The notes beneath the pieces are model-generated. The model saw nothing but the letters and a program-made list of their open reading frames with translations, was not told where the DNA came from and made no database searches. Positions 1 through 17,955 of a stretch of DNA of 61,818 nucleotides are shown here, in pieces (the stretch's first letter is position 1; each line of letters starts with the position of its first letter). The DNA is taken from NCBI GenBank assembly GCA_000961765.1, contig LADT01000067.1, forward strand, positions 1-61,818, read 5' to 3'. The position numbers were made by a program, and so were the translations under genes. This DNA comes from Clostridiaceae bacterium BRH_c20a (GTDB taxonomy: Bacteria > Bacillota > Peptococcia > Peptococcales > BICA1-8).

Positions 1-1
1 T

Positions 2-325: not shown

Positions 326-337
326 TAAAGCATGCTT

Positions 338-670: not shown

Positions 671-756
671 ATAGGCGTCCCTTCCTTTCCGGATTACTAC
701 TTACTATTGTATGATGTAGGGAAATATAATGTAACTTGGTTCCAGTAAGTAAAGAA

Positions 757-790
757 GCCCTCAAGTAAACCTTATGGTCTGATTGAGGGC
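757..790 (-). terminator. Intrinsic terminator of the P-type ATPase gene
   Basis: An inverted repeat with GCCCTCAA and TTGAGGGC arms and an 18-nt loop lies 43 bp past the ATPase stop. Read on the minus strand it is followed by a short pyrimidine-rich tract. Confidence 0.5.
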
Positions 791-832
791 CTTTGCATCT
801 GACTTTATTTTATTGCATTCAGTTTAGTTTGG

Positions 833-3538: not shown

Positions 3539-3658
3539 ATCTAGTCCCTCCTTCGAAATAGGTATCTGTGGTCTCCAAGATAATCAGTTTTACGCTTGGC
3601 ATACCCCATTTAATAATAGTGTCCCCGCTTTTAGGATTTATTCCCAAACATAAACAAG

Positions 3659-3688
3659 AGCAGCCTTACTGTGACAGTAAAGGCTGCT
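3659..3688 (-). terminator. Second hairpin in the ATPase leader
   Basis: A 14-15 bp stem with one bulged base (arms AGCAGCC...GGCTGCT) follows the riboswitch terminator by about 6 nt on the minus strand. Only a weak T-tract (CTTGTTTA) follows it. It could be a back-up terminator or an RNA-stability element. Confidence 0.45.
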
Positions 3689-3693
3689 ATATG

Positions 3694-3725
3694 AAAAAAC
3701 CTTTACCATTTTAGATGGTAAAGGT
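3694..3725 (-). terminator. Riboswitch expression-platform terminator
   Basis: A perfect 11-bp stem (ACCTTTACCAT with ATGGTAAAGGT, 5-nt loop) is followed on the minus strand by at least five T. Its 5' arm begins with ACCTTT, which is also the 3' strand of the aptamer's closing helix P1. P1 and the terminator are therefore mutually exclusive, and ligand binding should favour read-through. Confidence 0.85.
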
Positions 3726-3808
3726 CTGGCAAACAACTGAAAGTTGCCAGCAAAGCCGGAGATAAATCTCGAAATGACGACTTTGCTGAAAAAGCTACTC
3801 CCCTTTAG
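3720..3808 (-). promoter_or_regulatory. yybP-ykoY (Mn2+) riboswitch aptamer
   Basis: On the minus strand the RNA carries the two conserved internal loops of this class: AAAGGGGAGTAGC near the 5' end and GCAAAGTCGTCATTTCG in the middle. They are followed by a CCGGCTTTGC return strand, a small TTGCC/GGCAA-type hairpin and the P1 return ACCTTT. Members of this class bind Mn2+ and usually control Mn exporters or P-type ATPases. Here it sits 180 nt ahead of the P2A ATPase, on the same strand, right after a promoter. Confidence 0.9.
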
Positions 3809-3830
3809 AAAGTATTAACTTGTTATACAT

Positions 3831-3859
3831 ATTTTAGCCTAAGCTGATTCCTGTGTCAA
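3831..3859 (-). promoter_or_regulatory. SigA-type promoter of the Mn2+ riboswitch/ATPase unit
   Basis: On the minus strand there is TTGACA (3859-3854), a 17-bp spacer and TAAAAT (3836-3831). The predicted start lies 10-15 nt before the aptamer. Only the third base of the -10 departs from consensus. Confidence 0.75.
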
Positions 3860-3894
3860 GGCGTATGTGTCCGACATGGCGTATGTGTCCGACA
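3860..3894. repeat. Tandem 17-bp direct repeat abutting the -35 box
   Basis: GGCGTATGTGTCCGACA occurs twice (3860-3876 and 3878-3894) with one base between. Each copy ends in the near-palindrome TGTCSGACA. The first copy touches the -35 hexamer of the ATPase promoter, so the pair could be an operator or simply a local duplication. Confidence 0.7.
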
Positions 3895-3922
3895 GCAGTC
3901 ACTGAATAGTATGCTCAACGCT

Positions 3923-5059
3923 TTATTTTGCCAGTTTTTCTGCAGGAATCTGCAGGAATGCCTCAACAACCAGCGGGTCAAACTGCTTTTCTTTCCCGGA
4001 TAAAATTTCATCGATTGCTTCATCATGTTTTTTTGCCAAGCGGTAAGGCCTGTCCGTTGTCATGGCATCATAAGCGTCTGCCACGCTGATAATACGTGCC
4101 AGATGTGGTATTTCTTCCCCCGCAAGCCCGTCAGGATACCCGCCTCCGTCCCATCTTTCATGATGATGCCGGATTATAGCCCTTACCTGTCTGGATAGTT
4201 CAGCCTTTTCTGTGATTATTTCTCCATTTGCCGGATGCATTTTGATGATTTCCCATTCATCTGCCGACAGGGGTTCAAGCTTCATGATAATGCTTTCGGG
4301 CACGCCAATTTTTCCGATATCGTGAAGTGTCGCTGCTTGGTAAAGTTGTTCCTGTTGTTCACGACTTAATCCAAATATGTCTGCGCAATCTGACGATATT
4401 TTAGCAACCCGTTCGGAATGCCCCTGCGTATAAAAATCCCTGGTCTCCATAGCTGCCGACAGCCCCTTGATAACACTTATGTATTGTTTTTTCAAGAAAT
4501 TATGGCTTCTGGCATTTCCCAGCGCCATACCCAGCTGATTCGCCATGTCGGTCAAAAACTGATAATCATACTTTGACCATTGTTGCGGCTCAAACGAGTA
4601 TATTTTCAATGTGCCGATAGTCTTTCCGCCAGTTTTTAATGGGGCCACGAGCATAGATTTTATCTTATCAGCGTAATATGGCATTATTTTACTATTTTCT
4701 TCATCTATATTTTCTATCCCCAACGTAACTCCACTGGCTAAAACTTTGCCAAGCAGAGTCCCCTCCGGTTTGACTTTCATTGCCATGCTCATTATGTTTT
4801 CCGGAATACCTGCGCTGGCCTTGATTGTCAATTCGCCCGTCTTCTCATCCAAGATGCGAAACACGCACCATCTTCCTTCAAAAGCTGACAGTACGGTTTT
4901 CAAGGCTTTATTCAGCACAACTTGTTCATCGTCGCAACCGGCAAGCTCCATCCCCAGCTTAATCAAAGCTCTTATTGTTCTATCCCTTTGACAAGGCTCA
5001 TAACAAGAGTCGCCATCATTATATTGCTCTATCTGCCTGTTTGTTTGATGATAATCCAT
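3923..5059 (-). CDS. GAF/HD-GYP domain c-di-GMP phosphodiesterase
   Basis: The ATG at 5059 (protein MDYHQTNRQ) follows GGAGG at 6 nt, which is better than an upstream ATG at 5155 that would overlap gerB. The 378-residue product has an N-terminal GAF domain (about residues 35-175) and a C-terminal HD-GYP domain. The latter has HDIGKIGVPESI and HHHERWDGGGYPDGL, the metal-binding and GYP signatures of c-di-GMP-hydrolysing enzymes. It has no membrane segment, so it is probably a cytoplasmic sensor-phosphodiesterase. It is the last gene of the germination array, 37 bp after gerB, and a c-di-GMP riboswitch lies at the far end of the same cluster. Confidence 0.88.
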   Translation of the reverse strand: MDYHQTNRQIEQYNDGDSCYEPCQRDRTIRALIKLGMELAGCDDEQVVLNKALKTVLSAFEGRWCVFRILDEKTGELTIKASAGIPENIMSMAMKVKPEGTLLGKVLASGVTLGIENIDEENSKIMPYYADKIKSMLVAPLKTGGKTIGTLKIYSFEPQQWSKYDYQFLTDMANQLGMALGNARSHNFLKKQYISVIKGLSAAMETRDFYTQGHSERVAKISSDCADIFGLSREQQEQLYQAATLHDIGKIGVPESIIMKLEPLSADEWEIIKMHPANGEIITEKAELSRQVRAIIRHHHERWDGGGYPDGLAGEEIPHLARIISVADAYDAMTTDRPYRLAKKHDEAIDEILSGKEKQFDPLVVEAFLQIPAEKLAK

Positions 5060-5096
5060 TTTCTGCCTCCAAGCATTCATGTGTTGATTAATTCTA

Positions 5097-6185
5097 TTAT
5101 AGCTGTTGCCGGATTTTCCCTGCAATAAGCAATAAAACAGGTATGATAAAGCCAAACAGAATGTTCAGATGTATTGCCACCATAACTGAAAACTCCTCCA
5201 GCTCAAACTGGCTTTTTGCGATATACAAGCTTAATATGTACATGAGAATTGTCAAGATGCCAATAAGGAATTTTGTATCCGACAGCTTGAACAAATATTT
5301 GATTATACACAAAATGGAGTAGAAGAATACGATAATAAGTATAAAATCGGCGATGATCCACTGGGTTACCGCCAAAGCCTCGATTCTGTCAAGGGCTCTT
5401 AAAACGGTTATGTTTTTTACAGTCATATAAAACGGTAAACTGGAACGCGCAGTCACTGAATAGCCTAATGACCCTATGGTCATTACGGAAAGCAGGATGT
5501 GCATGACCGTAAGAAATACGGCTCCTTTTATTCCAATGTTTTTAATTGCTTCTTTATATTTTATTTTATCACTAAAAAAGAAAAGCACAACAAAGTAGGC
5601 CCATAACCCTGCAAGGTAATAGCTGCCTTTTATGACGGGCAGAATATCAAGCCGGCTTATGGGTGTCAGATTGTCAATACTTATATTTTTTGTAGAAAAT
5701 ACAAAAAGCAAAGCGAACCCGATCAGCAATAGAAGGGCAATAATTTCGCCCATTCTGGCAAAGACAACCAAGCCGTATCGTAAAACCACTGCTACCAGTA
5801 CCAGCATTACGATTATAAAAAATGATATGTCGCTGGCAGGCGCTATGGCCGTATTGATTCTTATGGCATAATACCTTGTATACAAAACTAATAATATAAC
5901 AAGCCATCCAATATAAGCCGATAAAATTACACTTCCCAGATATTTGCCTGTAATTTTGCAGATAATATCCATCCATGAAGCATCTCTATGCTTTTTGTAA
6001 AAGCTATGAAACACCAGAACAAGCAGCAGCAAAAACACAAAGGACACCAGGGGCGTGAGCCATCCGGCCTGTTTGGCTTCCGCTGCCGCCTGGGTGGGAA
6101 AAAACCTGATGGCAGGGGAATAAAGCAGCGTTATAAATAATATCACAGCCTGTCTGAAGGATATTTTTTCCTGATGTGAAAGCAC
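5097..6185 (-). CDS. gerB: GerAB-type spore germination permease
   Basis: This 362-residue membrane protein has about ten hydrophobic segments and an N-terminal SHQEKISFRQAVILFI start, typical of the GerAB/ArcD/ProY family (APC fold). GerAB subunits bind the small-molecule germinant in the spore inner membrane, next to GerAA and GerAC. Translation starts at GTG (6185) after GGGGAGGAG. It follows a small membrane-protein gene by 15 bp. Confidence 0.9.
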   Translation of the reverse strand: MLSHQEKISFRQAVILFITLLYSPAIRFFPTQAAAEAKQAGWLTPLVSFVFLLLLVLVFHSFYKKHRDASWMDIICKITGKYLGSVILSAYIGWLVILLVLYTRYYAIRINTAIAPASDISFFIIVMLVLVAVVLRYGLVVFARMGEIIALLLLIGFALLFVFSTKNISIDNLTPISRLDILPVIKGSYYLAGLWAYFVVLFFFSDKIKYKEAIKNIGIKGAVFLTVMHILLSVMTIGSLGYSVTARSSLPFYMTVKNITVLRALDRIEALAVTQWIIADFILIIVFFYSILCIIKYLFKLSDTKFLIGILTILMYILSLYIAKSQFELEEFSVMVAIHLNILFGFIIPVLLLIAGKIRQQL

Positions 6186-6200
6186 TGCTTCTCCTCCCCT

Positions 6201-6401
6201 CTACAGATGAAAGCCTATCATGTCTGTCAGAAAACCGGCGATGCTTTCCCTGTTTGGATTTGACAGGTATAGATAGCCAAGCGCTAGCGTCACTATAACA
6301 GCCCCAAGGTACACGGCAATATCCTTCCTTTGGCCTTTGCTTTTCAAGTCCATTATTTCAAAAGCGCTTACCAAAATAACCAGGACCGTAAAAAGGATCA
6401 T
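6201..6401 (-). CDS. Small membrane protein of the germinant-receptor operon
   Basis: This 66-residue protein has two hydrophobic segments (about 1-17 and 29-47), a basic linker between them and a short polar tail. Its ATG overlaps the gerC stop by 4 bp (ATGA), so it is translationally coupled. Small two-helix proteins (GerD-like or 'GerXD' subunits) are known in some Bacillus and Clostridium ger operons and modulate receptor function. That this is one is inferred from position and topology only. Confidence 0.6.
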   Translation of the reverse strand: MILFTVLVILVSAFEIMDLKSKGQRKDIAVYLGAVIVTLALGYLYLSNPNRESIAGFLTDMIGFHL

Positions 6402-7627
6402 TCTCCTTCACCTGCCTTATATTTGTTCGGCTGCCTTATGTCGTAAGTCCTCTTTACTGCTGATGCCACTTCAAAATCAAATCTTATATTGGGAAAAATT
6501 TCCTTCCACCTGCCCTTTAGGGACTGCCATTTTACAGGGTGCTTATGATATATCCTGTCTGCAATATCCAAAATATCTGTATTATTTATTTGAGCCAGTT
6601 TGACTGCCGTTTCCATATACTGCTTTACGGCAGCTGCCTGCTGCTCTTCAAGCTTTTCCAGCTCGTCTTTGTTAAATATATCTATTGTTGAGTGCATTTC
6701 GGCAACATTGCTTTCTACGGCAGCCTTTACCAGAACCGACACCGTATCGCCGTCAAACCGGGGAATGATTTTTGTGTTTGCCTTGATGATCTCCAGCGCA
6801 ACTTCCCTGTCCGTGGAGTCTTTCACATTGACTACTCCTGATTTTACTTTGTTTGTAATGAAATTAATCCCCATTGACTCCGGCTTGTCGGCGAAGGCTA
6901 TCAGCTTTGCGTCTTTAAAAACGGCATATCCTTCCAGCCGGATCTCGATTTCATCGCTCTCGTCTTTTTTCTGTCCAATAGGGTCTTTTTGAGCTATGCG
7001 CAATGCCGGAATAATTACATCCGAGTATTCATCATCAAGTCTGCCCATCAGCTCTATCAGTTCAAGCCTGCCGAAAACCGACATCAAACCTGTGCTACTC
7101 AAAAGAATGTTCAGCAGCTGAGGAACATAAAGAGCGCCCGTCTTGCTTATTGCCAATAATTCCTCGGCGGTAGCATCCTTGACAATAAAAATTCTTGCAT
7201 TATGCCTTAATGCCTGACCGCGGCTTAAAAGATCCAGATACTTTATCAAATCCTCCCTGGCGGCTTCCTCGCCGATAATAAAAAAATCAGCATATCCCCA
7301 GAATACCTGCTTCTTATTATAGGTTTGAAATATCCTGGCAGCTTCAGAGACGGTCTTGCCCTCCGAGCTCACAACAACGGCTCCGCCGCCTTGGGCCGCC
7401 TGCCCTGTTGCTTCCATTCTCCCGGCTCCCGCCCCTTGCTTATCCATTTTGGAGGTTATTGTAACCCTGATATCCTCGGGATTATCCGGCGATTTATCGA
7501 TGCCGACGGCCTCTATAAGTTCAAGGTCTACCAGTTCCTTCCTCTCAGGCAGGAACGTTTTTTCTCCACACCCGTTCATAAGAAAAGAAAACACAAGCAA
7601 TACTCCGGCCAGCAGGTATTTTTTCAT
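6398..7627 (-). CDS. gerC: Ger(x)C family germination lipoprotein
   Basis: The 409-residue product begins with a lipoprotein signal (MKKYLLAGVLLVFSFLMNGC, lipobox Cys at 20) and continues with the GerAC fold, including LELIEAVGIDKS near the start. GerAC lipoproteins sit on the outer face of the spore inner membrane as the third receptor subunit. The order gerA-gerC-small protein-gerB, with gaps of 10 bp or overlaps, indicates one transcript. Confidence 0.9.
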   Translation of the reverse strand: MKKYLLAGVLLVFSFLMNGCGEKTFLPERKELVDLELIEAVGIDKSPDNPEDIRVTITSKMDKQGAGAGRMEATGQAAQGGGAVVVSSEGKTVSEAARIFQTYNKKQVFWGYADFFIIGEEAAREDLIKYLDLLSRGQALRHNARIFIVKDATAEELLAISKTGALYVPQLLNILLSSTGLMSVFGRLELIELMGRLDDEYSDVIIPALRIAQKDPIGQKKDESDEIEIRLEGYAVFKDAKLIAFADKPESMGINFITNKVKSGVVNVKDSTDREVALEIIKANTKIIPRFDGDTVSVLVKAAVESNVAEMHSTIDIFNKDELEKLEEQQAAAVKQYMETAVKLAQINNTDILDIADRIYHKHPVKWQSLKGRWKEIFPNIRFDFEVASAVKRTYDIRQPNKYKAGEGE

Positions 7628-7636
7628 GCCTTCGCC

Positions 7637-9166
7637 TCATTTCTGCCTTCGCTTGTTTGTAACGTGCAATTCCTCAGGACGTTTTTTATGCAGGAACAGG
7701 GGCAGCCGGAAAACCGTATCTGCCCAGCTTTTGCCGTCAGCCGTCACAAAGGGTGATAAATAAGGCACCCCAAAGCTTTCCAGGGTACAATAGTGGAACA
7801 GCAGGATCAGGCTTCCGATTGTCAGGCCAAAAAGCCCTGCAATGCAGCTCAAAACAGCTATGATAAGCCTCCATAGCCTTAATGCATTGGAAAAATCCAG
7901 ATTCGGCATGGTAAAGCCCGCTATCCCCGTAATTGCAACTACAATCACAACGGAGGGCGATACGATTTTGGCAGCCACAGCAGCCTCTCCCAGAATCAAA
8001 GCGCCGACGATGGAAAGAGCCTGACCGATTGTTTTTGGCAATCTCAGGCCTGCCTCCAATAATATCTCGAAAGCAAAAAGCATGGCCAGAACCTCTATAA
8101 AGGTTGGAAAAGGCACTCCTTCCTTGGCAGCAACAATGGAAAGCGCCAGATCCTTAGGAATCATTTCATGATGAAATGTGGCCACCGATATATATATTCC
8201 AGGAAAAAACAGCGTTAAAAACATCAGAAAATATCTACTGCTTCGGACAAAGGAGCTTACTATGTAGTTATGCGCATAATCTTCAGGGGCTTGCATAAGC
8301 TGGTTTATTGTCGCAGGGACAATATATGCAGTGGGCAGTCCGTCAATTATCAACCCAACCATGCCGCTGACAATATTGGAGCAAAACCTGTCAGGCCTCT
8401 CAGTGGCCGCTATCTGGGGAAACATGGTAGTCCTGCTGTCGGAAATGTATTCTTCAATATGCCCCGGAGAGTTTAGCTCGTCGATCTGGATGTTATCAAG
8501 CCTTTTTTTAACCTCGTCCACCAGATGATTGTTGGTAAGCCCATCTATATAGACGACTGCAACAGCGGTCATTGATTGTCTCCCGACGATGGTCTGTACA
8601 ATCCGGAGCTTTGGTGTTTTGATTCTCCTCCTTATGGTAGCGGTATTTACCCTTAAGGTTTCAACAAATACATCCTTTGCGCCTTTTTGGACATTCTCAC
8701 TCGTAGGCTCGGTGATGGCCCGCTTCTCAAAGCCCTTGACATCAAAGGTTATAGCCTTAGATTCACTGTCAAAAATCAGTGCGGCGCTGCCATTAATCAC
8801 ATCATTAATGCAGTCATTGATAGCGGTACGGGTTTTATGAGCAGCATGATACACCGTACCGTATTCTATCAGTTTGATTAGTCCTTTGAGCGATCTGTCT
8901 TCGCTCAATTTGCTTTCCTGAATCAGGGGCTTTAAGATGTCGTCATTGACAGTTTTAGTGTTTATCATACCCTCTACATATAAAAGGGTCGTACGCAAAT
9001 CTTTATTGCTGTTTATGTATATTTCCTTGAACGTAACGTCGCTGTTTTCTCCTAAAACCGATCTCAGCGCCTCCGTTGTAAGCTTAAGGTTTTTTTCATC
9101 CGGTTTTTGTTCGCAAGTTGTTGTTTCCTGCGGGCCGTTCTTTTTATTTCGCTGTTTGAAAAACAT
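7637..9166 (-). CDS. gerA: GerA family spore germination protein (GerAA)
   Basis: The large soluble N-terminal domain (about residues 25-265; motifs DVTFKEIYIN, TLLYVEGM, RRRIKTPKLR) is followed by a 4-5 helix membrane domain containing the conserved PFPTFIEVLAMLFAFEILLE. GerAA subunits form the pentameric ion channel of germinant receptors. I prefer the ATG at 9166 (MFFKQRNKKN; AAGGGTGAT upstream). An ATG at 9214 would add 16 residues and overlap the upstream stop, so coupling to the preceding gene is possible either way. Confidence 0.9.
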   Translation of the reverse strand: MFFKQRNKKNGPQETTTCEQKPDEKNLKLTTEALRSVLGENSDVTFKEIYINSNKDLRTTLLYVEGMINTKTVNDDILKPLIQESKLSEDRSLKGLIKLIEYGTVYHAAHKTRTAINDCINDVINGSAALIFDSESKAITFDVKGFEKRAITEPTSENVQKGAKDVFVETLRVNTATIRRRIKTPKLRIVQTIVGRQSMTAVAVVYIDGLTNNHLVDEVKKRLDNIQIDELNSPGHIEEYISDSRTTMFPQIAATERPDRFCSNIVSGMVGLIIDGLPTAYIVPATINQLMQAPEDYAHNYIVSSFVRSSRYFLMFLTLFFPGIYISVATFHHEMIPKDLALSIVAAKEGVPFPTFIEVLAMLFAFEILLEAGLRLPKTIGQALSIVGALILGEAAVAAKIVSPSVVIVVAITGIAGFTMPNLDFSNALRLWRLIIAVLSCIAGLFGLTIGSLILLFHYCTLESFGVPYLSPFVTADGKSWADTVFRLPLFLHKKRPEELHVTNKRRQK

Positions 9167-9206
9167 ATCATCACCCTTACTGGGATTATTGGCAGCACTA
9201 TGCCAC

Positions 9207-10328
9207 TTAAACATTCATACCACATTTTTTATCCATAACCGGCTTGCTTGTTTCTCTTTTTCTCTCAAGTATATCAATAAAAGCTTCGACTCTTGTCATG
9301 TAGCCTGCTTCACCTGACATTTCATCCAAGATCAAGGTTATTATCGGAATGCCATATTTGTTTTGTATCTCGTTAAACGTGCATTGGGCAATGATTTCAG
9401 GCATGCAGGTAAACGGGTATAAATGGATAATTCCATCGTACCCGCTCCTGCCGCATAATACTGCGTTCCCTACAGTTTCAAGCCCATGCCCCCCGATGTC
9501 GTCGGTCCTCATATACTCCTTGCCGGCTTCATGAGGTGTGTTTTTTGATTTTACAGGCAGGTTCCTTTTTATAAAATGCTCCATTATCCAGTGGGAGACA
9601 CTGAGCGTGTTATGAACCTCTACACCCATATTGCCCAGCTTTTTTTCTACGTCCAGGTTAGCCGATGGTTCGAGGGCAACATAGAATTCACCCACGATGG
9701 CGACTTTTAACGGCTTTGCTTTCTTATCGATTTTTAATGTTTTCAACGTCCGCATGGCCCTATTGATTTCTTTTATTATTGCTTTGTAGCCTTTGGCGTT
9801 TTGCACTCTGGTGTGAAACTCCTTCATGGTATTATCCGTATAGCCTTTTACAACCTCTCTGCAGCGGGTATAGCTTGCGAGTCTGTATAGCTTATCTACC
9901 CTGAAGACGGTCCATATGGCGCAGGCTATGGCTTTTATGATTTTCCCCAAGCTTTTGCCTTCCGTGAGCGGTTTTATTTTTTCTACGATTTCCTTGACGG
10001 TCATAAAGGTTAAATCGATGCAAATAAATTTTACATTATGGCCGACGCTTTTTAGTATTTCCGTCTGTAAATCTCCGTAATATCCAAGCCTGCACTGGCC
10101 TAAACCGCCGCAAAACAATACGGTGTCCGCCCCGTTTTGTATACCGTGTATAAAGTCGCCCAATATTATTTTGAAGGGCAGGCAAATAAATTCCGGAGAG
10201 TGGGTCGAGCCATACTCCAGCGTCCTTTTATTGCATAAGGGAGGCATGACATAGCATATCCCAATTGTTTCCAGCAAAACCTTAATAGGTACATACATAT
10301 TACCCGCATGTGGAAAAGTTATTTTCAT
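9207..10328 (-). CDS. HGD-D-like / activase-related Fe-S protein
   Basis: The 373-residue protein has the hallmarks of 2-hydroxyacyl-CoA dehydratase D-type and activase-related proteins. These are a CNKRTLEYGS...SPEFICLPFK block, then GGLGQCRLGYYGDLQ, a PFTCMPEIIAQ loop and the C-terminal LILDEMSGEAGYMTRVEAF. The conserved Cys probably hold a 4Fe-4S cluster. No CoA-dehydratase alpha/beta pair is nearby. It follows the DUF2229 gene by 7 bp, and its stop overlaps the region where gerA begins. Its substrate is unknown. Confidence 0.75.
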   Translation of the reverse strand: MKITFPHAGNMYVPIKVLLETIGICYVMPPLCNKRTLEYGSTHSPEFICLPFKIILGDFIHGIQNGADTVLFCGGLGQCRLGYYGDLQTEILKSVGHNVKFICIDLTFMTVKEIVEKIKPLTEGKSLGKIIKAIACAIWTVFRVDKLYRLASYTRCREVVKGYTDNTMKEFHTRVQNAKGYKAIIKEINRAMRTLKTLKIDKKAKPLKVAIVGEFYVALEPSANLDVEKKLGNMGVEVHNTLSVSHWIMEHFIKRNLPVKSKNTPHEAGKEYMRTDDIGGHGLETVGNAVLCGRSGYDGIIHLYPFTCMPEIIAQCTFNEIQNKYGIPIITLILDEMSGEAGYMTRVEAFIDILERKRETSKPVMDKKCGMNV

Positions 10329-10335
10329 AAATAAA

Positions 10336-11322
10336 TCATCCTATCATATCCAAAAATGCTTCAACTCTTGTGTCAAATCCTGCCTCTCCCGTATGCTCGT
10401 CTATTGTCAGCTTCAGGAAAGGTACTTTATAGCGGTCTTTAAACTGTCTTTCAATAAATTCGATAATGAAGGCATCGACTCCACAGGCAAACGGCGACAA
10501 GTAAATAATACCATTCATATTTTTATCCTGCGCATATGTAAACGCACTTCCCAGGTTTTCAAACCCCACCTCCCAAAAGGCCTTGCCCTGGTAGGGGTAG
10601 GCATTATGCCTTTTAGTTTTATGGTCAAGGTTTAGAGGGGTATATACGTCAATATCCTTTTCTTTCAGCTTTTTTATAAGCTTCATGCTTAAATAGCTGT
10701 CGTAGATCACATAAGGGTGTCCTAGTACGGATACCGCACGCTTTTTTAGGTCTCTGACCTGGTTATAGCAATTCACCCTTGATATTTCCTGTTTTTTTTC
10801 ATGAAATAACTCTATCGCAGTCTGGAAAGCCTCTATAGTATCTTGATAGTTTACACCCAGGATCCTGGCGATTTCCTTCAAGCTTTCAAAGGTAAGGCCG
10901 GTATCCTTGTCTATATGCAGCTTAACTTCCAGAACCTTTATTTTATTTTTCAGGTTCAAGAGAGCCATGTCCGGCAGACCGCAAAACTTTGGGCAGGTGT
11001 ACTCGTTTTTATCAATGCTTGTATATCTTGGAATAAATATATAATCTGTTTTGTCTTTAAGGCTGTAAACATGTCCGTGAAAGACCTTTACAGGCAGGCA
11101 TGTTTCATTGCTGCAGTGAATAATCCCGTTATCTAAAATTTCTTTGTTGGTATCCTCTGAAGTTATTACAGGGAAGCCTAGTATTTTAAAAAAGCTTTCC
11201 CAAAGTATGCTGTGTTCATAATAGAATAAGCCTTTGGGAAGCCCGATTACCGGAAGGTTTTCACTGATGCAGCATCCCTTGTTATATACAACCTTGCTGG
11301 CAGTTGCTACAGATGTTAACAC
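10336..11322 (-). CDS. DUF2229 acyl-CoA dehydratase activase-related protein
   Basis: This 328-residue protein has the DUF2229 start (VIGLPKGLFYYEHSILWESFF), CSNETCLPVKVFHGH, a CPKFCGLPD Cys pair and a C-terminal FACGVDAFIIEFIERQ...IDEHTGEAGFDTRVEAFLD. In many Firmicutes this module is fused behind a BadF-type ATPase in one large protein. Here the modules are separate genes 7-13 bp apart. It starts at GTG after GAGAGGTGAGATA. It presumably works with the upstream ATPase in ATP-driven low-potential electron transfer. Confidence 0.75.
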   Translation of the reverse strand: MLTSVATASKVVYNKGCCISENLPVIGLPKGLFYYEHSILWESFFKILGFPVITSEDTNKEILDNGIIHCSNETCLPVKVFHGHVYSLKDKTDYIFIPRYTSIDKNEYTCPKFCGLPDMALLNLKNKIKVLEVKLHIDKDTGLTFESLKEIARILGVNYQDTIEAFQTAIELFHEKKQEISRVNCYNQVRDLKKRAVSVLGHPYVIYDSYLSMKLIKKLKEKDIDVYTPLNLDHKTKRHNAYPYQGKAFWEVGFENLGSAFTYAQDKNMNGIIYLSPFACGVDAFIIEFIERQFKDRYKVPFLKLTIDEHTGEAGFDTRVEAFLDMIG

Positions 11323-11335
11323 TATCTCACCTCTC

Positions 11336-12313
11336 TTACACAGCAGTGGTCAACTGAGACCACTTGCCGCATCTGTCTCCCCAGCGGGCCAGAGTCTGAC
11401 TATCCGATAATATTTCTATAACCTCACACAAGTTGGGACAGCCATGACATTCCCAGCTTTTAGCCTTATAGTTGCTTTTTGCAGCTTCAAAACCATAGAA
11501 ATTGGTTATAGTGTTATTCCGTGAGATTTTTTCTTTTGCGAGTAATGCTGCCCCATACGCTCCCATAACGGCATGATGCTTTGGAATTATTATTTTTTTA
11601 TCCAGCGCTCTTTCAAAGGCTGCCACAATACCTATATTGGCTGCAACTCCACCCTGGAAAACGACAGGTTCTTCAATGTCCTTGCCTTTTGCCAGATTGT
11701 TTAAATAGTTCCGTACCAGAGCTTCGCACAAGCCATTTATAATGTCCTCAACATTGTGGCCTGTCTGCTGCTTGTGTATCATATCCGATTCAGCGAATAC
11801 AGCACATCTCCCGGCTATTCTTACAGATGAGCTTGAACGCAGGGCATAACCGCCGAATTCCTCTATAGGTATTTCAAGCCTTGAAGCCTGCCTGTCAAGG
11901 AAAGAGCCTGTACCTGCCGCACAGACGGTATTCATGGCAAAATCGGTCACCACTCCATTTTTAAGGATTATTATCTTGGAGTCCTGTCCTCCAATCTCCA
12001 GAATGGTGTTTACCCCGGGCACTAAGCTCTGCGCTGCAACGGCATGAGCCGTAATTTCGTTTTTTACAACGTCTGCTCCCACAATCACACTTGCAAGCTG
12101 TCTGCCGCTTCCCGTAGTGCCAACAGCTTTTACAATAATGTCCTTTCCGAACTTTTCCGATATGATTCTCATACCGTTGCACAGGACATTGATAGGGTGG
12201 CCGCTGGTTTTCAAATAAAGCCTCTCAATCATGTTATCGTCCTCATCAGTAATAACCAGATTGGTACTGACAGACCCAACATCAATTCCTAAAAAATATC
12301 CTTTTTCCTTCAA
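11336..12313 (-). CDS. BadF/BadG/BcrA/BcrD-type ATPase (activase)
   Basis: This 325-residue ASKHA-fold ATPase has the phosphate-1 loop GIDVGSVSTNL, adenosine/phosphate-2 motifs GGQDSKIIIL and FQGGVAANIG, and the cluster-ligand region NTVCAAGTGSFLDRQA with RIAGRCAVFAESD. That is the HgdC fold: a homodimer shares one 4Fe-4S cluster and uses ATP to inject electrons into a partner. A C-terminal pair (CHGCPNLCEV, WGDRCGKW) adds Cys, as in the first module of large fused activases. It starts at TTG after GGAAGGGAG. It leads a three-gene cassette running into the ger genes. Confidence 0.88.
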   Translation of the reverse strand: MKEKGYFLGIDVGSVSTNLVITDEDDNMIERLYLKTSGHPINVLCNGMRIISEKFGKDIIVKAVGTTGSGRQLASVIVGADVVKNEITAHAVAAQSLVPGVNTILEIGGQDSKIIILKNGVVTDFAMNTVCAAGTGSFLDRQASRLEIPIEEFGGYALRSSSSVRIAGRCAVFAESDMIHKQQTGHNVEDIINGLCEALVRNYLNNLAKGKDIEEPVVFQGGVAANIGIVAAFERALDKKIIIPKHHAVMGAYGAALLAKEKISRNNTITNFYGFEAAKSNYKAKSWECHGCPNLCEVIEILSDSQTLARWGDRCGKWSQLTTAV

Positions 12314-12386
12314 TTGTTTTTCTCCCTTCCAGAAATCTTTTCAATTATTAAAAGTAATAAGTAATAACTGCATTGGCAGAAAAATG

Positions 12387-13358
12387 CTACAGCCTATATA
12401 AAGGCGGGTTTACTAACCATCCCTTTACCTTTCCATATTTGATTAATCCATCAATGGCATCAATCTCCTCCGTTAACAGCCTGGCAAAGAGGTTCCTTAT
12501 GCGGTCATTCGTTGTTGCTTTCTTGACCGCCTGAGCATGGATAATGCTTGCCGAATTTAGGCCATTTAAGAGCAAATTAAAGATAAAATCATCATCTATG
12601 AATTCTGTGTTTTCCATATGGCCCAATTCTTTCGGTGGTTGCTTAGGGAGATTAATTCCAAAGCAAATTGCTTCTTTTTCAAGTTCTTTTATTTGTTTTT
12701 TTAAAATGTCCAGTCCTTTTCCCAGCAATAGTTTAAAGTCTCCGTCATGAGCTAATTGTACGAACAAATTTGTTTGCTCAACATTTAAATAACGGAAAAC
12801 TAAGTGATCCCAAATATGGTATGCTTCAGCAACATCAATTTTTTCGTTACATTCGGGGGGTATATTCTGCAACAATATAGGCTTTTCTATCCACCCTTTT
12901 AATTTCAAATATTTTATTATTGAATTCAGGTTCTTGATATCTACACCAACTAGGTAAATAAAGAATTCCCGAACCTTGTCGACATATTGTGCATTACGCA
13001 GACATCTCACTTTCATTTCAATCCGTTCTTGAGCCATTAACAGCAGATATTTTCCTATCAGCTCATCAGGTATTGCTTGAGAGTTAACGAATGTAGGTGC
13101 TTCTTTGCGAGGAGAATCAGGTGTTCTGATTCTGAAATGAGACATAATATTTTCAACTTTTTTTGAACGCCCTGAAATGTCGGAAATCGTATCATCAAGC
13201 TTTATTTTTAAATCTGGGTCATGGGCATAAACACGCAGCATTTTCAAGTACTCAAGAGATTCGTAATACCCAGTTAAAATATCCCAGAGATTATATACTT
13301 CAGCTGTACTTATCTCTGGAGGCGGGCTGTTTGGCTGTTTTATTTTAGAAAAAATCAT
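12387..13358 (-). CDS. Tandem DUF3231 protein
   Basis: Two homologous all-helical halves of about 155 residues each start (STAEVYNLWDILTGYY; DVAEAYHIWDHLVFRY) and end (LKGWIEKPILLQ; VKGWLVNPPLYRL) alike. This is the DUF3231 (ferritin-like four-helix) architecture, common in spore formers and of unknown function. I place the start at the ATG at 13358, after AAAGGAG; a GTG two codons upstream sits in the RBS. It is separated from the activase by 73 bp and may head the array or be a separate unit. Confidence 0.7.
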   Translation of the reverse strand: MIFSKIKQPNSPPPEISTAEVYNLWDILTGYYESLEYLKMLRVYAHDPDLKIKLDDTISDISGRSKKVENIMSHFRIRTPDSPRKEAPTFVNSQAIPDELIGKYLLLMAQERIEMKVRCLRNAQYVDKVREFFIYLVGVDIKNLNSIIKYLKLKGWIEKPILLQNIPPECNEKIDVAEAYHIWDHLVFRYLNVEQTNLFVQLAHDGDFKLLLGKGLDILKKQIKELEKEAICFGINLPKQPPKELGHMENTEFIDDDFIFNLLLNGLNSASIIHAQAVKKATTNDRIRNLFARLLTEEIDAIDGLIKYGKVKGWLVNPPLYRL

Positions 13359-13497
13359 ATACACACTCCTTTTTTTGTTATACTTTCTAACCTATATTTC
13401 CCACAATTTACATTTTTATAACTAAAATTTCCGTGACTACAAAAAACGACATTAATCATGCAATACGTAGTATATAATATAAGAAACGTTTAACTAT

Positions 13498-13592
13498 GAA
13501 CCGATAAAGGCAAACCTGCCGAAAGGTAGGGACGCAAAGCCACGGGTCTAAGGCGATCACCAAGATCGCGACGATAGCCGGGTTGCCGATGA
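13498..13592 (+). promoter_or_regulatory. c-di-GMP-I (GEMM-I) riboswitch
   Basis: The sequence has the class signatures in order: AAAGGCAAACCTGCCGAAAG, then GGGACGCAAAGCCACGGGTC, a second stem ending GATCGCGACGATAGCCGGG and the closing TTGCCGATG. GAAA and GCGA-type capping loops form the tetraloop-receptor pair of this fold. A TATAAT lies at 13473-13478, about 20 nt upstream, without a clear -35. Below it lies a terminator and then a two-gene sigma-like operon. Confidence 0.93.
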
Positions 13593-13600
13593 ATGAAATT

Positions 13601-13643
13601 AAGGCTCACCGGTGCTTAATTGATGCATCAGTGGGCCTTTTTT
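13601..13643 (+). terminator. Expression-platform terminator of the c-di-GMP riboswitch
   Basis: The stem AAGGCTCAC with GTGGGCCTT (one G-U pair), plus an inner GGTGC/GCATC extension, is followed by TTTTTT. It lies 8 nt past the aptamer and 37 nt before the next start codon. Whether c-di-GMP turns transcription on or off cannot be read with certainty. Confidence 0.8.
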
Positions 13644-13679
13644 AGTGGAAAAATTGAAAAAAGCGAGGTGTAAGTAATA

Positions 13680-13940
13680 GTGGAAAAGAAACAAAAGCTC
13701 AAAGTTTTAATTGTCAATGCCCAAAATGGCGATCAGGACTCCGTAGTTAATTTGGTGCACCGGTTTATTCCCACAGTCAAGAAGTATAGCCGCAGGATGG
13801 GTTATGAGGAGGCATATGCCGACTTGATTGCCTGGATGGTAAACGCAGTCCATAAATATAAATCTGTTCATGATACTAATATGACACTACCGGAACAGTA
13901 TCTTTTTTATTCGAAAACAGCCAAAAATAAAATATTGTAG
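13680..13940 (+). CDS. Small sigma region-2-like protein (HTH_16 / RsoA-like)
   Basis: This 86-residue protein starts at GTG after GAGGTG. Its features (LIVNAQNGDQDSVVNLVHRFIPTVKKYSRRM, then DLIAWMVNAVHKY) resemble the small region-2-like helix proteins such as B. subtilis RsoA and Tn916 Orf8. Such proteins pair with a separate region-4 protein to form a split sigma factor. The next gene downstream encodes exactly that, and the riboswitch upstream would place the pair under c-di-GMP control. Assignment is by size, helix pattern and gene order, not by a strong motif. Confidence 0.6.
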   Translation: MEKKQKLKVLIVNAQNGDQDSVVNLVHRFIPTVKKYSRRMGYEEAYADLIAWMVNAVHKYKSVHDTNMTLPEQYLFYSKTAKNKIL

Positions 13941-14019
13941 GAAGGGGGATGCCATATTAACATCTACTTTCTCTTTCTCTGATAGGGTGGCGAATTTACC
14001 CCCAGGAGGAGGTGAAAGC
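13937..14019 (+). promoter_or_regulatory. Structured leader between the two sigma-like genes (copy A)
   Basis: CTTTCTCTTTCTCT (13967-13980) is followed by a GGGT...ACCC hairpin and AGGAGGAGG. The pyrimidine run can pair with the purine-rich SD and hide it. A homologous leader (copy B) lies at 14673-14760 before another sigma-like gene. Confidence 0.5.
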
Positions 14020-14488
14020 ATGGGCCCCTACACCTAAAGAGTATGACCTGGAAGAAGCCCGGATTGTAACCTGGTTTATCACCGGGCTTCGTCACGAAGC
14101 AATCCGTTTGACCAAGAAATATAGGGGATTGCATGAGCATGAACTGCTTATTTTAAATGAGCAGTTAGGAAAAGAGGAAGGAGGACGTGAGATTAGAGAA
14201 ATGGTAGATACTTTAGCAGCGAAGTCGGATACCCAAGCCCAAGCGGAAGAAAACCTCTTTCTACAAGAAGCCTTTTCAATACTTACTCCCCTGCAGAAGA
14301 AAGTAATAGCAGGAGCAATCTTTGAAGGGACCACGGAGCAAGAAATTGCCCAGGAATTGGGAATCACTCACCAGTGTGTACATAAACTAAAAGAGCGAGG
14401 GTTAAACAGGTTAAGAAAAAGATTCGTCCCGGAGAAGTCCCACCGCCAAGTAGAGCCTTATCCAGGACGAACGACCACCCTTACCTGA
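14012..14488 (+). CDS. Sigma-70 region 4 protein (SigO / Tn916 Orf7-like)
   Basis: The 158-residue protein ends in a clear region-4 helix-turn-helix, LTPLQKKVIAGAIFEG followed by TEQEIAQELGITHQCVHKLK, with a basic tail. The N-terminal half is helical and acidic, without region 2. It follows a region-2-like gene, the arrangement of split sigma factors. The start is uncertain. The GTG at 14012 lies only 1 nt past AGGAGGA. An ATG at 14020 with ideal SD spacing, equivalent to the ATG in copy B, is one base out of frame because of an extra C in a CCCC run. A natural frameshift or a sequence error are both possible. Confidence 0.75.
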   Translation: MKAWAPTPKEYDLEEARIVTWFITGLRHEAIRLTKKYRGLHEHELLILNEQLGKEEGGREIREMVDTLAAKSDTQAQAEENLFLQEAFSILTPLQKKVIAGAIFEGTTEQEIAQELGITHQCVHKLKERGLNRLRKRFVPEKSHRQVEPYPGRTTTLT

Positions 14489-14550
14489 GGGTAGGAGGGT
14501 GTTCCTAATGCTATTTTAACTGTTCAAATATTAAAAAAATATATCTTTAG

Positions 14551-14582
14551 GAGAGGTTTTGAAAAAGAACCTCTCTTTTTTT
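14551..14582 (+). terminator. Terminator of the sigma-like operon
   Basis: The stem GAGAGGTT/AACCTCTC with a 9-nt loop is followed by at least seven T. Confidence 0.88.
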
Positions 14583-14707
14583 AGTCCATTAAGGACCGTA
14601 CAAGCTTTGACGGCTATAAAACCGCTCAAATTCTTCGTGCGGCCTTTTTTGTTGGATATAACAATTTTTAATTTTTTTTATGTAGGGGGGTGCAAAATTT
14701 TTCCTTA

Positions 14708-14756
14708 TTTTCTCTTTCTCTAGCAGGCGGCAAAAAGCCGCTCGAAGAGGAGATGA
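14708..14756 (+). promoter_or_regulatory. SD-sequestering leader hairpin (copy B)
   Basis: TCTCTTTCTCT (14711-14721), a GCGGC-AAAAA-GCCGC hairpin and then AGAGGAGA form a structure in which the pyrimidine run can pair with the SD of the leader ORF at 14761. It is homologous to the leader at 13937-14019. Confidence 0.5.
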
Positions 14757-14760
14757 AAGT

Positions 14761-14931
14761 ATGAGCCTTACACCTGACCCTCAGAAATATGATTCGTATT
14801 TATTTATGCATTCGCTAGGGTGCCGTTCCCCACCCTCTGTTTTGGTTTTTCTTTACCCAAATAACCAAAACGGAGGGTTGGAAAATGAAAAAGATCAATT
14901 TACGGGATTATTACGCTTTCTATCAGTCTGA
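14761..14931 (+). CDS. Possible leader ORF overlapping the element's sigma gene
   Basis: ATG at 14761 has a strong SD (AGGAGA, 7 nt) and opens a 56-codon frame starting MSLTPDPQKYDSYLFMHS. Its first residues match TPKEYDLEE at the start of the 158-residue sigma protein upstream. It runs through the hairpin at 14833-14877 and stops 47 nt inside the next gene. It may be a translated coupling leader or the 5' remnant of a region-4 gene; I cannot tell which. Confidence 0.35.
   Translation: MSLTPDPQKYDSYLFMHSLGCRSPPSVLVFLYPNNQNGGLENEKDQFTGLLRFLSV
14833..14877 (+). promoter_or_regulatory. Hairpin hiding the RBS of the element's sigma gene
   Basis: A 15-bp stem (5' arm CCCTCTGTTTTGGTT at 14833-14847, 3' arm at 14863-14877, one G-U pair) contains the GGAGGG SD of the ATG at 14885 in its 3' arm. 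A ribosome translating the upstream leader ORF would open it. Confidence 0.65.
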
Positions 14932-15307
14932 TTATTTTGTTGAAGTGGCCGATCAAATTGTTGAACTGTTCAAGCAGTTCTGCCGAAAGGAACATGCAGA
15001 TTTTGAACGCAGGCGTGTCCACAAGGCATATTATTCGCTTGACGCTAACGACGGTATTGAAAGGGATATTGTCTTGTTGGTGTTATCACCGGAGGAAATC
15101 TACGAACGTAAAATGAGCAATATGGAGTTGTATGCCGCTATCAACAGCCTGCCAGAAAAACAGGCCAAGCGTATCTATGCCCACTTCTTTCTGCAAATGA
15201 ATAAAGCGGAAATAGCCAGTATTGAAGGCGTGAGCAAAACTTCTGTAACTCATTCTATTGAGCAAGGTTTAAAACGCATTGAAAAATTTTTAAAAAATAT
15301 TTCCTGA
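14885..15307 (+). CDS. Sigma-70-like factor of a Tn1549-type element
   Basis: The 140-residue protein begins KINLRDYYAFYQSDYFVEV and ends with a region-4 helix-turn-helix (LPEKQAKRIYAHFFLQMNKAEIAS...SVTHSIEQGLKRIEKFL). This is the standard sigma-like regulator encoded near the int end of Tn1549-family elements, where it is thought to act on excision or transfer genes. The ATG follows GGAGGG, which is buried in a hairpin. Confidence 0.85.
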   Translation: MKKINLRDYYAFYQSDYFVEVADQIVELFKQFCRKEHADFERRRVHKAYYSLDANDGIERDIVLLVLSPEEIYERKMSNMELYAAINSLPEKQAKRIYAHFFLQMNKAEIASIEGVSKTSVTHSIEQGLKRIEKFLKNIS

Positions 15308-15854
15308 TCGGGTTAACTTTTGACCAAAAAATCTGCTGATTAGTAGAGGGACAAGTCTACCCCCTCGGCTGATCCTTGAAAATTGAATAGGTGTTTTATC
15401 CGGTACTTTCCCCGTATGTCCTGTGAAGGAAAGCCAGATTGCAGGTACGCCAAGACCACCTTTTCGGTATCAGCCGGATTACAGCCGATGTATCCATACC
15501 ATTGAAGATTGGATGAAGTAAAGGTGTGAGCGATTAATACCCATGCAATAAATAAATGCTGGCTGCATTTAAGGCGATGACACATACGGAGGGATCATGA
15601 TACTTCCGTCCAGCCACAGCCCCGCGCGAGCGGGATCACGCAATGGGGACGGCTCGCAGAGAACCTGGGAGAGGTGAAATTCCTATGAGGACTGTTAGCC
15701 GCAGTCCGCCGGATAGACCATAGTCTTATAAACCAAAACAGAAGTGCAGTATGGGAGTGCGCCTGTTTTTGCAAGCATATCTGCGTGTCCAATCTAAGGC
15801 GCATCTCCTGCTGCACGAATAAAAAATAGAACGAAAACGAAAAGGAGGCTTACT
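15308..15854 (+). other. Non-coding, structured-looking region of the element
   Basis: These 547 bp hold no convincing gene. The stretch 15590-15730 is GC-rich and can form small hairpins, for example GGACTG...CAGTCC near 15688-15706. Its composition differs from the AT-rich chromosome. It may contain the element's excision or promoter signals. Confidence 0.5.
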
Positions 15855-16085
15855 ATGGCTAATGAAAAATTATCCCAAGAAAAAGCCTACCGTATCATGC
15901 TAAAGGGATATCCCGATGTGCTTGATATAAAGCAAATGTGTGAAATTCTTGGCATTAGTCTAAAGACAGGATACGGTTTGATACAAGAAAATAAAATTGA
16001 ATGTTTAAAGGTTGGGCGGGCATATAAAATCCCCAAGCCTTTTTTATTTAGCTATCTGAGAATAGGAACAAGCAGCGACAGCTAA
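15855..16085 (+). CDS. xis: Excisionase-family DNA-binding protein
   Basis: This 76-residue protein has a winged-helix MerR/Xis-like core: PDVLDIKQMCEILGISLKTGY, then LIQENKIECLKVGRAYKIPKPFL. Excisionases bend DNA at attachment sites and steer the integrase toward excision. The ATG follows AAAGGAGG, and the integrase gene lies 96 bp downstream in the same direction. Confidence 0.85.
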   Translation: MANEKLSQEKAYRIMLKGYPDVLDIKQMCEILGISLKTGYGLIQENKIECLKVGRAYKIPKPFLFSYLRIGTSSDS

Positions 16086-16181
16086 CAAAAATGATATTTG
16101 CACATTTTACGAGCCTTTTTTATTGTGATACACTCATCCTGTCAACGGCAGGTGAGCGAATAATTTGAAAGGAGGAGCCAT

Positions 16182-17519
16182 ATGGAACTCACCCAAATGC
16201 TGAAAATGGTCAGATTGACCGAGGATGAATTGATTGGAGGCTTCATAACACCAAAGAAAGGATATTATTACATCGTTCTCAATCGAAAGGATCAGAACGG
16301 TAAGCGCAAGCCTCTTTGGATTTCAACAGGGCTTTCTGCAATTGAGGAAAATGAAGCAGAAGCCGAAAGCAAATGCTTATCAACCAGAATCCAATATTCG
16401 CTTGATCTGAAAAATGGTGTAGCGGATAAGACGTTTACGCATGAAGTGCCTGAAAAGAGCATTGCTCCTGATGATTCCGATGAAAACCATTCCGCAAATC
16501 CCTTGTTCGCGGATTTATTAAACGAATGGCTGGCATTCAGACACCCGGATAATATTGTGGTGGGGGAAGATTTTAATTTTGACAGAACGATCAAGCTCAA
16601 TACCTGGGCCGGATATGCAGACAATATAAAGCAAAACCTGTATCCGACATTCAAGACTTATGGATGCACTGTCCAGGAAATAACGCCCGATCTGCTCAAG
16701 GGACATTACGCTTATCGGCTGAAACACGGCAAGAAGAAGGCTACAGTTGCCAAGGATTACACCGTTATCAACCAGGTATTGAATTATGCCGTCAGCAAAA
16801 AGATGATCAGTGTGAATCCAAACAGCGCAATTACCTTACACAAAATCGAGAAATATAATGCAGCTACGCTCAATGCTGAACAGATGCAGTATTATCTCGA
16901 ATTTATTGTCGGAGATATTATTGAAATCCCTATATTGCTCGGCGGCTTTTATGGGATGCGACGCAGTGAGTGTGTTGGCACCAGAGAATCGCAATTTGAT
17001 TTTCAGCACAAATTCTTTCGGGCTAATCACACTGTAACGACAGCAGTGATCGATAAGCAAAAGATATATATCCCTTCCGATAAGCTCAAAACGGATTTAA
17101 GCAACCGCACTTATCCCTTGATTCCTTATGTAGAGGAAAGGATAAAAGCAAAAATAGCTGAGAACAAGGAACTGAGGAAGCTTTGCGGCAGTTCATACAG
17201 CAACGAATGGCTTGGATATCTTTGCGTCCATCCTTTGGGGGAAATCATCGACCCGGGTTACATAACCAACAGACACCGGGAGTTACTCAAGAAAGCCGGA
17301 TTGCCGCATGTCAGGTTCCATGACCTTCGACATTCGTGCGTAGGATTGATGATGGCCAATGAAGTACCTATGGAGCGTATCAGAGATTGGGTTGGTCACA
17401 GCGACATCCGAACAACGATCAATACCTATGGCCATCTGGAATACCAATCTAAGAAAAAAACGGCCAAGATCATTCAGAAATCTTTGCCGCTTAAAATGGC
17501 AGGGACTGCTAATCTTTAG
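16182..17519 (+). CDS. int: Tyrosine recombinase / site-specific integrase
   Basis: The 445-residue protein has an N-terminal arm-binding domain (about 1-70), a SAM-like core-binding domain (about 105-215) and a C-terminal catalytic domain. The catalytic residues are visible: Arg in GGFYGMRRSE, HDLRHS, the His in WVGHSD and Tyr in TINTYGHL. It looks intact. It ends 17 bp from the 3' end of tRNA-Ser(CGA), which suggests that gene is the attachment site. Confidence 0.93.
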   Translation: MELTQMLKMVRLTEDELIGGFITPKKGYYYIVLNRKDQNGKRKPLWISTGLSAIEENEAEAESKCLSTRIQYSLDLKNGVADKTFTHEVPEKSIAPDDSDENHSANPLFADLLNEWLAFRHPDNIVVGEDFNFDRTIKLNTWAGYADNIKQNLYPTFKTYGCTVQEITPDLLKGHYAYRLKHGKKKATVAKDYTVINQVLNYAVSKKMISVNPNSAITLHKIEKYNAATLNAEQMQYYLEFIVGDIIEIPILLGGFYGMRRSECVGTRESQFDFQHKFFRANHTVTTAVIDKQKIYIPSDKLKTDLSNRTYPLIPYVEERIKAKIAENKELRKLCGSSYSNEWLGYLCVHPLGEIIDPGYITNRHRELLKKAGLPHVRFHDLRHSCVGLMMANEVPMERIRDWVGHSDIRTTINTYGHLEYQSKKKTAKIIQKSLPLKMAGTANL

Positions 17520-17536
17520 GATTAACAGCCCCATGA

Positions 17537-17626
17537 TGGCGGAGAGTCAGGGATTTGAACCCTGGGTACATTTACATGTACACTGGTTTTCGAGACCAGC
17601 TCCTTAAGCCGCTCGGACAACTCTCC
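17537..17626 (-). tRNA. tRNA-Ser(CGA)
   Basis: A class II cloverleaf with a 7-bp acceptor stem GGAGAGT/ACTCTCC, discriminator G and encoded CCA. The anticodon loop is CTCGAAA, there is a long variable arm and the T-loop is TTCAAAT. The integrase gene abuts its 3' end. Confidence 0.95.
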
Positions 17627-17955
17627 GAATATAAACTTATTTAGTACCTCGGATAGAACTTGGATAGAACAGCTCAAAAAGCTGTCCTGATTCGAACTCC
17701 GAGGGTTTGGAAAACTGCATAAAATCAAGGTTTTCGGCTACATGGTTTCCACAAAGCTCCACGCATTTCGAGTCAGGCCCGTTATGACCACTTCGATACC
17801 CCTCCGTATATGTTTAACCGCTTTTGGCGGAAAAACGCTTTTTAGAAAACTGTGAGCAAAGTGTTAGCATTTGCTAAAATTTTTCATTGATCAGGCGCTC
17901 ACAAAGCCTGATTCCATGCAGGTTTGTGTCTTGCAGCCGGGCATTTGACCGATTT

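Follow-up and report, generated by a model that had tools for sequence, protein, structure and literature searches.

A predicted c-di-GMP-I riboswitch and a putative split sigma factor beside the recombination module of a tRNA-integrated element in Clostridiaceae bacterium BRH_c20a

The usual targets of riboswitches are genes of metabolism, motility or adhesion. A locus of Clostridiaceae bacterium BRH_c20a raises the question of whether a c-di-GMP riboswitch may also act on a sigma factor encoded in two pieces and, if so, which genes such a factor would serve. The window analyzed here is the whole 61,818-nt stretch of contig LADT01000067.1 (GCA_000961765.1), read on the forward strand; the genome to which it belongs is 4.5 Mb. 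A reading of this DNA from sequence only had placed a c-di-GMP-I aptamer and terminator 5' of a gene for a region-2-like protein followed by a gene for a region-4 protein, and this arrangement was confirmed with RF01051, Pfam and family profiles (Table 1). The locus joins known parts in a genuine, conserved arrangement that is undescribed in searchable papers; a literature search, with most subscription journals beyond its reach, returned no paper that connects RsoA to either c-di-GMP or mobile elements.

Table 1. Features of the riboswitch-sigma locus and its surroundings (positions are those of the window)
Feature	Position	Strand	Basis or remark
HD-GYP gene	3923-5155	-	HD and HHERWDGGGYP motif both intact
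TATAAT, probable -10 of sigma-A-type promoter for riboswitch transcript	13473..13478	+	sequence
c-di-GMP-I (GEMM-I) aptamer	13499..13590	+	RF01051, 87.5 bits (gathering score 35)
Intrinsic terminator (expression platform)	13601..13643	+	long G+C-rich stem and T6, folding energy -20.8 kcal/mol
Sigma-2 subunit, RsoA-like, HTH_16 family, regions 2.1-2.2, 86 aa	13680..13940	+	HTH_16 family matches
Motif P1, promoter-like, putative split-sigma target 5' of sigma-4 gene	13944..13980	+	motif search
Shine-Dalgarno AGGAGGAGGTGA for leader ATG	14004..14015	+	sequence
Sigma-4 subunit frame, 2.3/2.4-like and region 4, 158-aa ORF	14012..14488	+	Sigma70_r4, 33.9 bits (cut-off 24.1)
Leader ORF MGPYT-stop; +1 frameshift proposed at its TAA	14020..14037	+	sequence
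Terminator 3' of sigma-4 gene	14549..14582	+	sequence; second terminator ends at 14650
Motif P2, promoter-like, 5' of Orf7-like gene	14685..14721	+	33.1 bits, signature as P1
Decayed M-x-P-Y-T leader copy before Orf7-like gene	14761..14777	+	one base lost
Orf7-like sigma-70 region-4 protein, Tn916-type	14885..15307	+	Sigma70_r4_2, 33.9 bits
pemK RNA motif, where Tn916 has canT	15594..15688	+	RF02913, 69.2 bits; PMC11658703
Excisionase (xis)	15855..16085	+	TIGR01764, HTH_17
Tyrosine integrase (int)	16182..17519	+	Phage_integrase, Phage_int_SAM_5
tRNA-Ser(CGA), adjoins integrase, presumed attachment gene	17537..17626	-	ARAGORN

The aptamer also matched RF03167, the "GGC" variant family (75.6 bits versus a gathering score of 59), and competition among Rfam families assigned it to that variant. 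This assignment to c-di-GMP-I-GGC was rejected. We take the "GGC" of the family name to denote a G replacing A47, and the window has A at the column where RF03167 has G (GGGACGCAAAGCC), so that its ligand-contacting bases are those of an ordinary c-di-GMP-I aptamer. The canonical ligand contacts G20, A47 and C92 (Vc2 numbering) could be read directly in the window aptamer, in AAAGGC, CGCAAAG and UGCCG. From these bases we infer that the leader is a predicted c-di-GMP binder of class c-di-GMP-I. Homologous leaders likewise have a terminator 3' of the aptamer, and TATATAAT was found 5' of the riboswitch in UBA6129 (L038) and G129 (L087) as well. The window genome holds 13 c-di-GMP-I aptamers, which indicates that the organism is rich in c-di-GMP signalling. 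To decide between an ON and an OFF switch, the aptamer and the terminator arm were evaluated for antiterminator pairing, and no significant pairing was found (z of +0.8 to -2.2). By analogy with the class-I switch of Clostridium difficile flgB, an OFF switch would be somewhat the likelier of the two.

The two proteins downstream resemble complementary parts of a sigma factor. Sigma-2 of the window scored 20.9 bits against HTH_16 (PF12645, the RsoA/Orf8 family), just below the Pfam cut-off of 22, and HTH_16 was matched by all 15 of the 15 sigma-2 family members (best match, 4.3e-9). In an AlphaFold model of sigma-2 (pLDDT 61), the top 18 structural neighbours were all sigma factors aligned at region 2, with Z of 5 to 7 and Foldseek E-values of at least 1; the prediction for sigma-4 was too poor for use (pLDDT 46). 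The sigma-4 profile matched region 4 of SigB (1.6e-12). Moreover, sigma-2 matched positions 6 to 49 of 180 in SigY and sigma-4 matched positions 44 to 164 of 165 in the TIGR02937 model, and this complementary coverage suggests two pieces of one ECF-like sigma factor, cut after region 2.2. Taken with the HTH_16 membership and the structural neighbours, it supports a predicted SigO/RsoA-like split sigma factor with the gene order reversed. Among plasmids, sigma-4 had a single match (31%, Alicyclobacillus), and no Orf7-like sequence was found in sigma-4; sigma-2 had no match among phages, and viral contigs yielded one weak relative only. The DNA that encodes the C-terminal tail of sigma-4 (RQVEPxPGRTTT; window 14430-14488) is similar despite a change of frame in the tails of L069, L070 and L071, and a stretch resembling it is present without sigma-4 in L100; this may be a conserved stem-loop.

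A search of 398 genomes of the phylum gave homologs of sigma-4 in 26, with a patchy distribution, the weakest matches being ordinary full-length sigma factors. A c-di-GMP-I aptamer and terminator lay directly upstream of the pair, on the same strand, in 13 (window, L038, L069 to L073, L078, L082 to L084, L086 and L087) of the 21 readable pair loci (window, L038, L069 to L076 and L078 to L088; L077, at a contig end, was left out). Because there are 13 aptamers in 4.5 Mb, such a linkage would arise by chance at about 1/1000 per locus, and its presence in 13 of 21 loci is beyond what chance explains. The likeness to SigO/RsoA drawn by the sequence-only reading was upheld, riboswitch-pair linkage included. 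The equation of the pair with Orf8/Orf7 of Tn916 was not, since it is the following gene (14885-15307) that corresponds to Orf7. That reading had also joined the riboswitch in a regulatory circuit to an HD-GYP gene at the far end of the divergent array. This found no support: the gene is about 8.3 kb away, amid spore-germination genes, and has no consistent link to the pairs, an HD_5 gene being about 3 kb from the pair in one other locus, L083. The riboswitch-sigma pair is a separate unit, joined to the Orf7-like gene. The integrase end, the putative sigma-target motif and the proposed frameshift leader had all escaped the sequence-only reading. In 14 of the 21 loci no recombinase was nearby, and the split sigma factor would serve other genes besides recombinases. 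A membrane protein of about 105 aa (FTYxxLxTLTGAVTATVLVVEF) travels with the pair in L084 (9616-9933 of the locus as reversed), L071 to L074, L081 and L083; it looks like a holin and has no Pfam or NCBIfam match.

A bipartite, promoter-like motif, GGGGGTTRTTAAAA-N11/12-TTCTCTTTATAT, was found between the two sigma genes in almost every pair locus. A matrix scan of the pair loci (323 kb) gave 39 sites of at least 25 bits, and the reversed and Markov controls gave none; the matrix had been trained on sites from the loci that it scanned. In the whole 4.5-Mb window genome, the exact pattern occurred only at 13944 and 14685, both within the module, and the controls contained no match. Motif sites precede genes for sigma-4, Orf7-like proteins, serine recombinases and MauE-, holin- and YvrJ-type proteins; the SigO-RsoA regulon of Bacillus subtilis likewise includes yvrJ (PMC8103513). 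The P2 motif precedes the Orf7-like gene in each of the three copies of the element, and an A/T tract of at least 9 lies upstream of 76% of motif sites versus 10% of random places, as with UP elements. Together, these features of the sequence point to the motif as the putative target promoter of the split sigma factor, with P1 providing feedback on sigma-4 and P2 driving the recombination module. An apparent likeness to TcdR-type promoters (CTCTTT) was dropped, the -35 of Group 5 sigma factors being TTTACA (PMC4031146) and that of the motif GGGGGTTRTTAAAA.

The start of sigma-4 appears to be unusual. Its gene is preceded by a consensus leader, a strong Shine-Dalgarno sequence followed by ATG-xxx-(CCC)-TAC-ACC-TGA/TAA, and the sigma-4 frame is +1 to this leader. 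Both the leader ORF and the +1 relation were found in the window, L038, L069 to L072, L075, L079 and L088; L074 has a poly-T run. No in-frame start precedes the conserved sigma-4 N terminus in L069 to L072, L074 and L079. A sequencing error is argued against by recurrence at the same codon in independent genomes. Probably the second protein starts at ATG 14020 in the other frame and not at GTG 14012, and a +1 shift at 14035 would yield a product of 155 aa, with an N terminus about as long as that of the relatives with an in-frame start (L078, L082, L083 and L084). Three loci depart from this pattern: L073, L081 and L085 would require a different shift, with L085 resembling a pseudogene. The frame of the leader ORF did not stand out by codon-position entropy. 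A copy of the leader is also present 5' of the Orf7-like gene in L038 and L087, so that the leader may act purely as a leader peptide.

Downstream of the pair, the Orf7-like protein shares 52% identity across 138 aa with a sigma-70 family protein of Enterococcus, which we take to be Orf7 of Tn916. The pemK RNA (RF02913) that follows may be a canT-type antiterminator; canT of Tn916 is a processive antiterminator (PMC11658703). The Enterococcus orf7-like locus shares a ATAATGATACTTC core with the pemK RNA and gave a weak pemK match (L168 4686-4745; 15.6 bits, E of 3.1). In the window, xis and int abut the 3' end of the tRNA, a layout shared with L038 and L087. In UBA6129, the block, including the Orf7-like gene and pemK RNA, lies beside a tRNA-Leu and is 79% identical in nucleotides to window 13506-15810, from riboswitch to pemK RNA, with flanks that have no nucleotide match. 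G129, with the integrase module at the same tRNA-Ser, has a truncated sigma-4, and the pair is therefore dispensable in that genome. Between these two distant genera, window and G129, 14657-17773 is 92% identical, the riboswitch-sigma part 81% and the host flank about 71%, and this mosaic indicates that the parts have different histories. Large serine recombinases lie downstream of the pair in L069 to L072. No attL or direct repeat of the tRNA end was found at the other boundary in the searched stretches of the window, L038 and L087.

Left of tRNA-Ser, the window has nothing in common with its relatives. Genomes G028 and G029 have recR-dnaX-tRNA-Ser(GGA)-pdxK left of tRNA-Ser(CGA) and nothing from window 1-17520. 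The recR-dnaX-pdxK genes are replaced in the window by 1-13364, a large insertion or rearrangement left of tRNA-Ser, with a GerA-type germination operon, the HD-GYP enzyme, CoA-dehydratase activase genes and a DUF3231 gene. A candidate GerA synteny between window and G129 was rejected, only paralogs (34%) being present. At the contig end, 61327-61556 matched group II intron 3' domains (RF02005, 133.8 bits).

In the model that we favor, c-di-GMP would set transcription of sigma-2 and, by read-through, of sigma-4. The two subunits would join on core RNA polymerase and recognize GGGGGTTRTTAAAA-N11/12-TTCTCTTTATAT. At P1, the pair would switch on its own sigma-4 gene, a positive feedback; at P2, it would switch on the Orf7-like/pemK RNA/xis/int module of the tRNA-integrated element, and cellular c-di-GMP would thereby be read into recombination of the element. 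Synthesis of sigma-4 would need the +1 ribosomal frameshift at the stop of the five-codon leader, which would limit or time it. We assign the whole of this model, a riboswitch-set split sigma factor that activates its own sigma-4 and the recombination module and has a frameshift-gated sigma-4, a probability of about 0.55. More tentatively, and with the odds somewhat against it, the loci may belong to a family of c-di-GMP-switched two-subunit sigma factors, one subunit gated by programmed +1 frameshifting in a five-codon leader, that integrative elements have adopted to couple excision and recombinase expression to host c-di-GMP.

Several other explanations were weighed. Translation of sigma-4 might begin at GTG 14012 or at some other non-AUG codon, the leader ORF then encoding a peptide for attenuation or coupling and no frameshift taking place. 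An in-frame GTG is present in the window, L038 and L088, and the leader copies before the Orf7-like gene stand where a shift is unnecessary. However, GTG 14012 lies within the Shine-Dalgarno sequence (3-nt spacing, versus 7 to 8 nt for ATG 14020), L069 to L072 and L079 have not one ATG, GTG or TTG before the conserved N terminus, and the shifted N terminus agrees in length with L078, L083 and L084; we regard a start without a shift as doubtful. It is unlikely, again, that the motif is an RNA attenuator, formed by a hairpin and a U-rich tract in the 5' leader transcripts of genes for sigma-4, recombinases and holins, with the pair acting otherwise or on other promoters. The spacing is constant at 11 or 12 with or without a possible stem, the sites of the window, L078, L079 and L073 form no true stem, the upstream A/T tracts resemble those of UP elements, and TCTCTTTA is kept beyond the need of a U-tract. 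An attenuator would account for a spacer that in many sites is partly complementary to the -35 part (4.8 pairs versus 4.2 in permuted sites, a value reached by 0 of 500 permutations), for the terminator-like sites of L085, L086 and L070, and for the one ordinary terminator that reached 25.4 bits with the motif matrix.

The identity of the pair as a sigma factor can be disputed as well. Sigma-2 has no convincing -10 recognition region, sigma-4 also matches a positive control sigma-like factor model and neither subunit is a whole sigma factor, so the proteins might be paired DNA- or polymerase-binding regulators, Xpf-like or antiterminator-like, that do not act as sigma. Against this stand the complementary coverage of one sigma factor, the HTH_16 membership, the structural neighbours, the fixed bipartite motif at linked genes and an experimentally shown precedent in SigO-RsoA (PMC8103513, PMC10028694), and we consider it quite improbable. 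That the pair is a passive leftover beside a decaying element, regulating nothing that matters for the element in the window genome, also has a low probability in our judgment: the window has kept both sigma ORFs, both motifs, the riboswitch, xis and int intact, and P2 precedes the Orf7-like gene in every element copy. Decay is suggested by the missing left attachment site in the searched stretches, by left-flank genes that are metabolic and sporulation genes and not conjugation genes, by the broken sigma-4 of G129 and by the base lost from the leader before the Orf7-like gene. The favored model, a riboswitch-set split sigma factor with the recombination module among its targets, would provide a route from biofilm and motility signalling to mobile-element recombination. 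Placed immediately before a split sigma factor, the riboswitch could let a single small-molecule signal change which promoters RNA polymerase uses, and for the recurrent unit a promoter code, a regulon and a recoding event are all predicted.

Among known systems, SigO-RsoA (YvrI-YvrHa) of B. subtilis, which responds to acid stress and controls oxalate decarboxylase (oxdC), is like the window pair in that adjacent genes encode an HTH_16 protein resembling region 2 and a protein with region 4. It is a self-regulated operon with a YvrJ-type gene in its regulon, and counterparts of both traits are predicted for the window family. The order is sigO then rsoA in B. subtilis and sigma-2 then sigma-4 in the window; the window pair is therefore SigO/RsoA-like and not an orthologous operon. 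The c-di-GMP-I riboswitch, the distinct promoter signature, the proposed +1 frameshift leader and the recombinase modules among the predicted targets also set the window pair apart from SigO-RsoA. The orf7-orf8-canT-xis-int end of Tn916 resembles the window in having an Orf7-like gene, an RNA motif before xis, xis and int, with the main promoter before orf7. Unlike Tn916, the window lacks an orf8 downstream of the Orf7-like gene and has an additional riboswitch-sigma pair ahead of it and an integrase that abuts a tRNA, and the split-sigma motif was absent before the Enterococcus orf7-like gene. Group 5 sigma factors (TcdR, BotR and UviA) resemble the putative window factor in being small, clostridial and linked to holin-like genes (UviA-UviB), but they are single polypeptides with a -35 of TTTACA (PMC4031146) and not GGGGGTTRTTAAAA. 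Finally, the c-di-GMP-I riboswitch of C. difficile flgB, like that predicted in the window, is a class-I switch that puts a sigma factor under c-di-GMP. In the flgB case, the gene for sigma-D is among the 29 genes of a flagellar operon (PMC11477304), whereas in the window the sigma factor would be the immediate target of the switch and a two-subunit factor.
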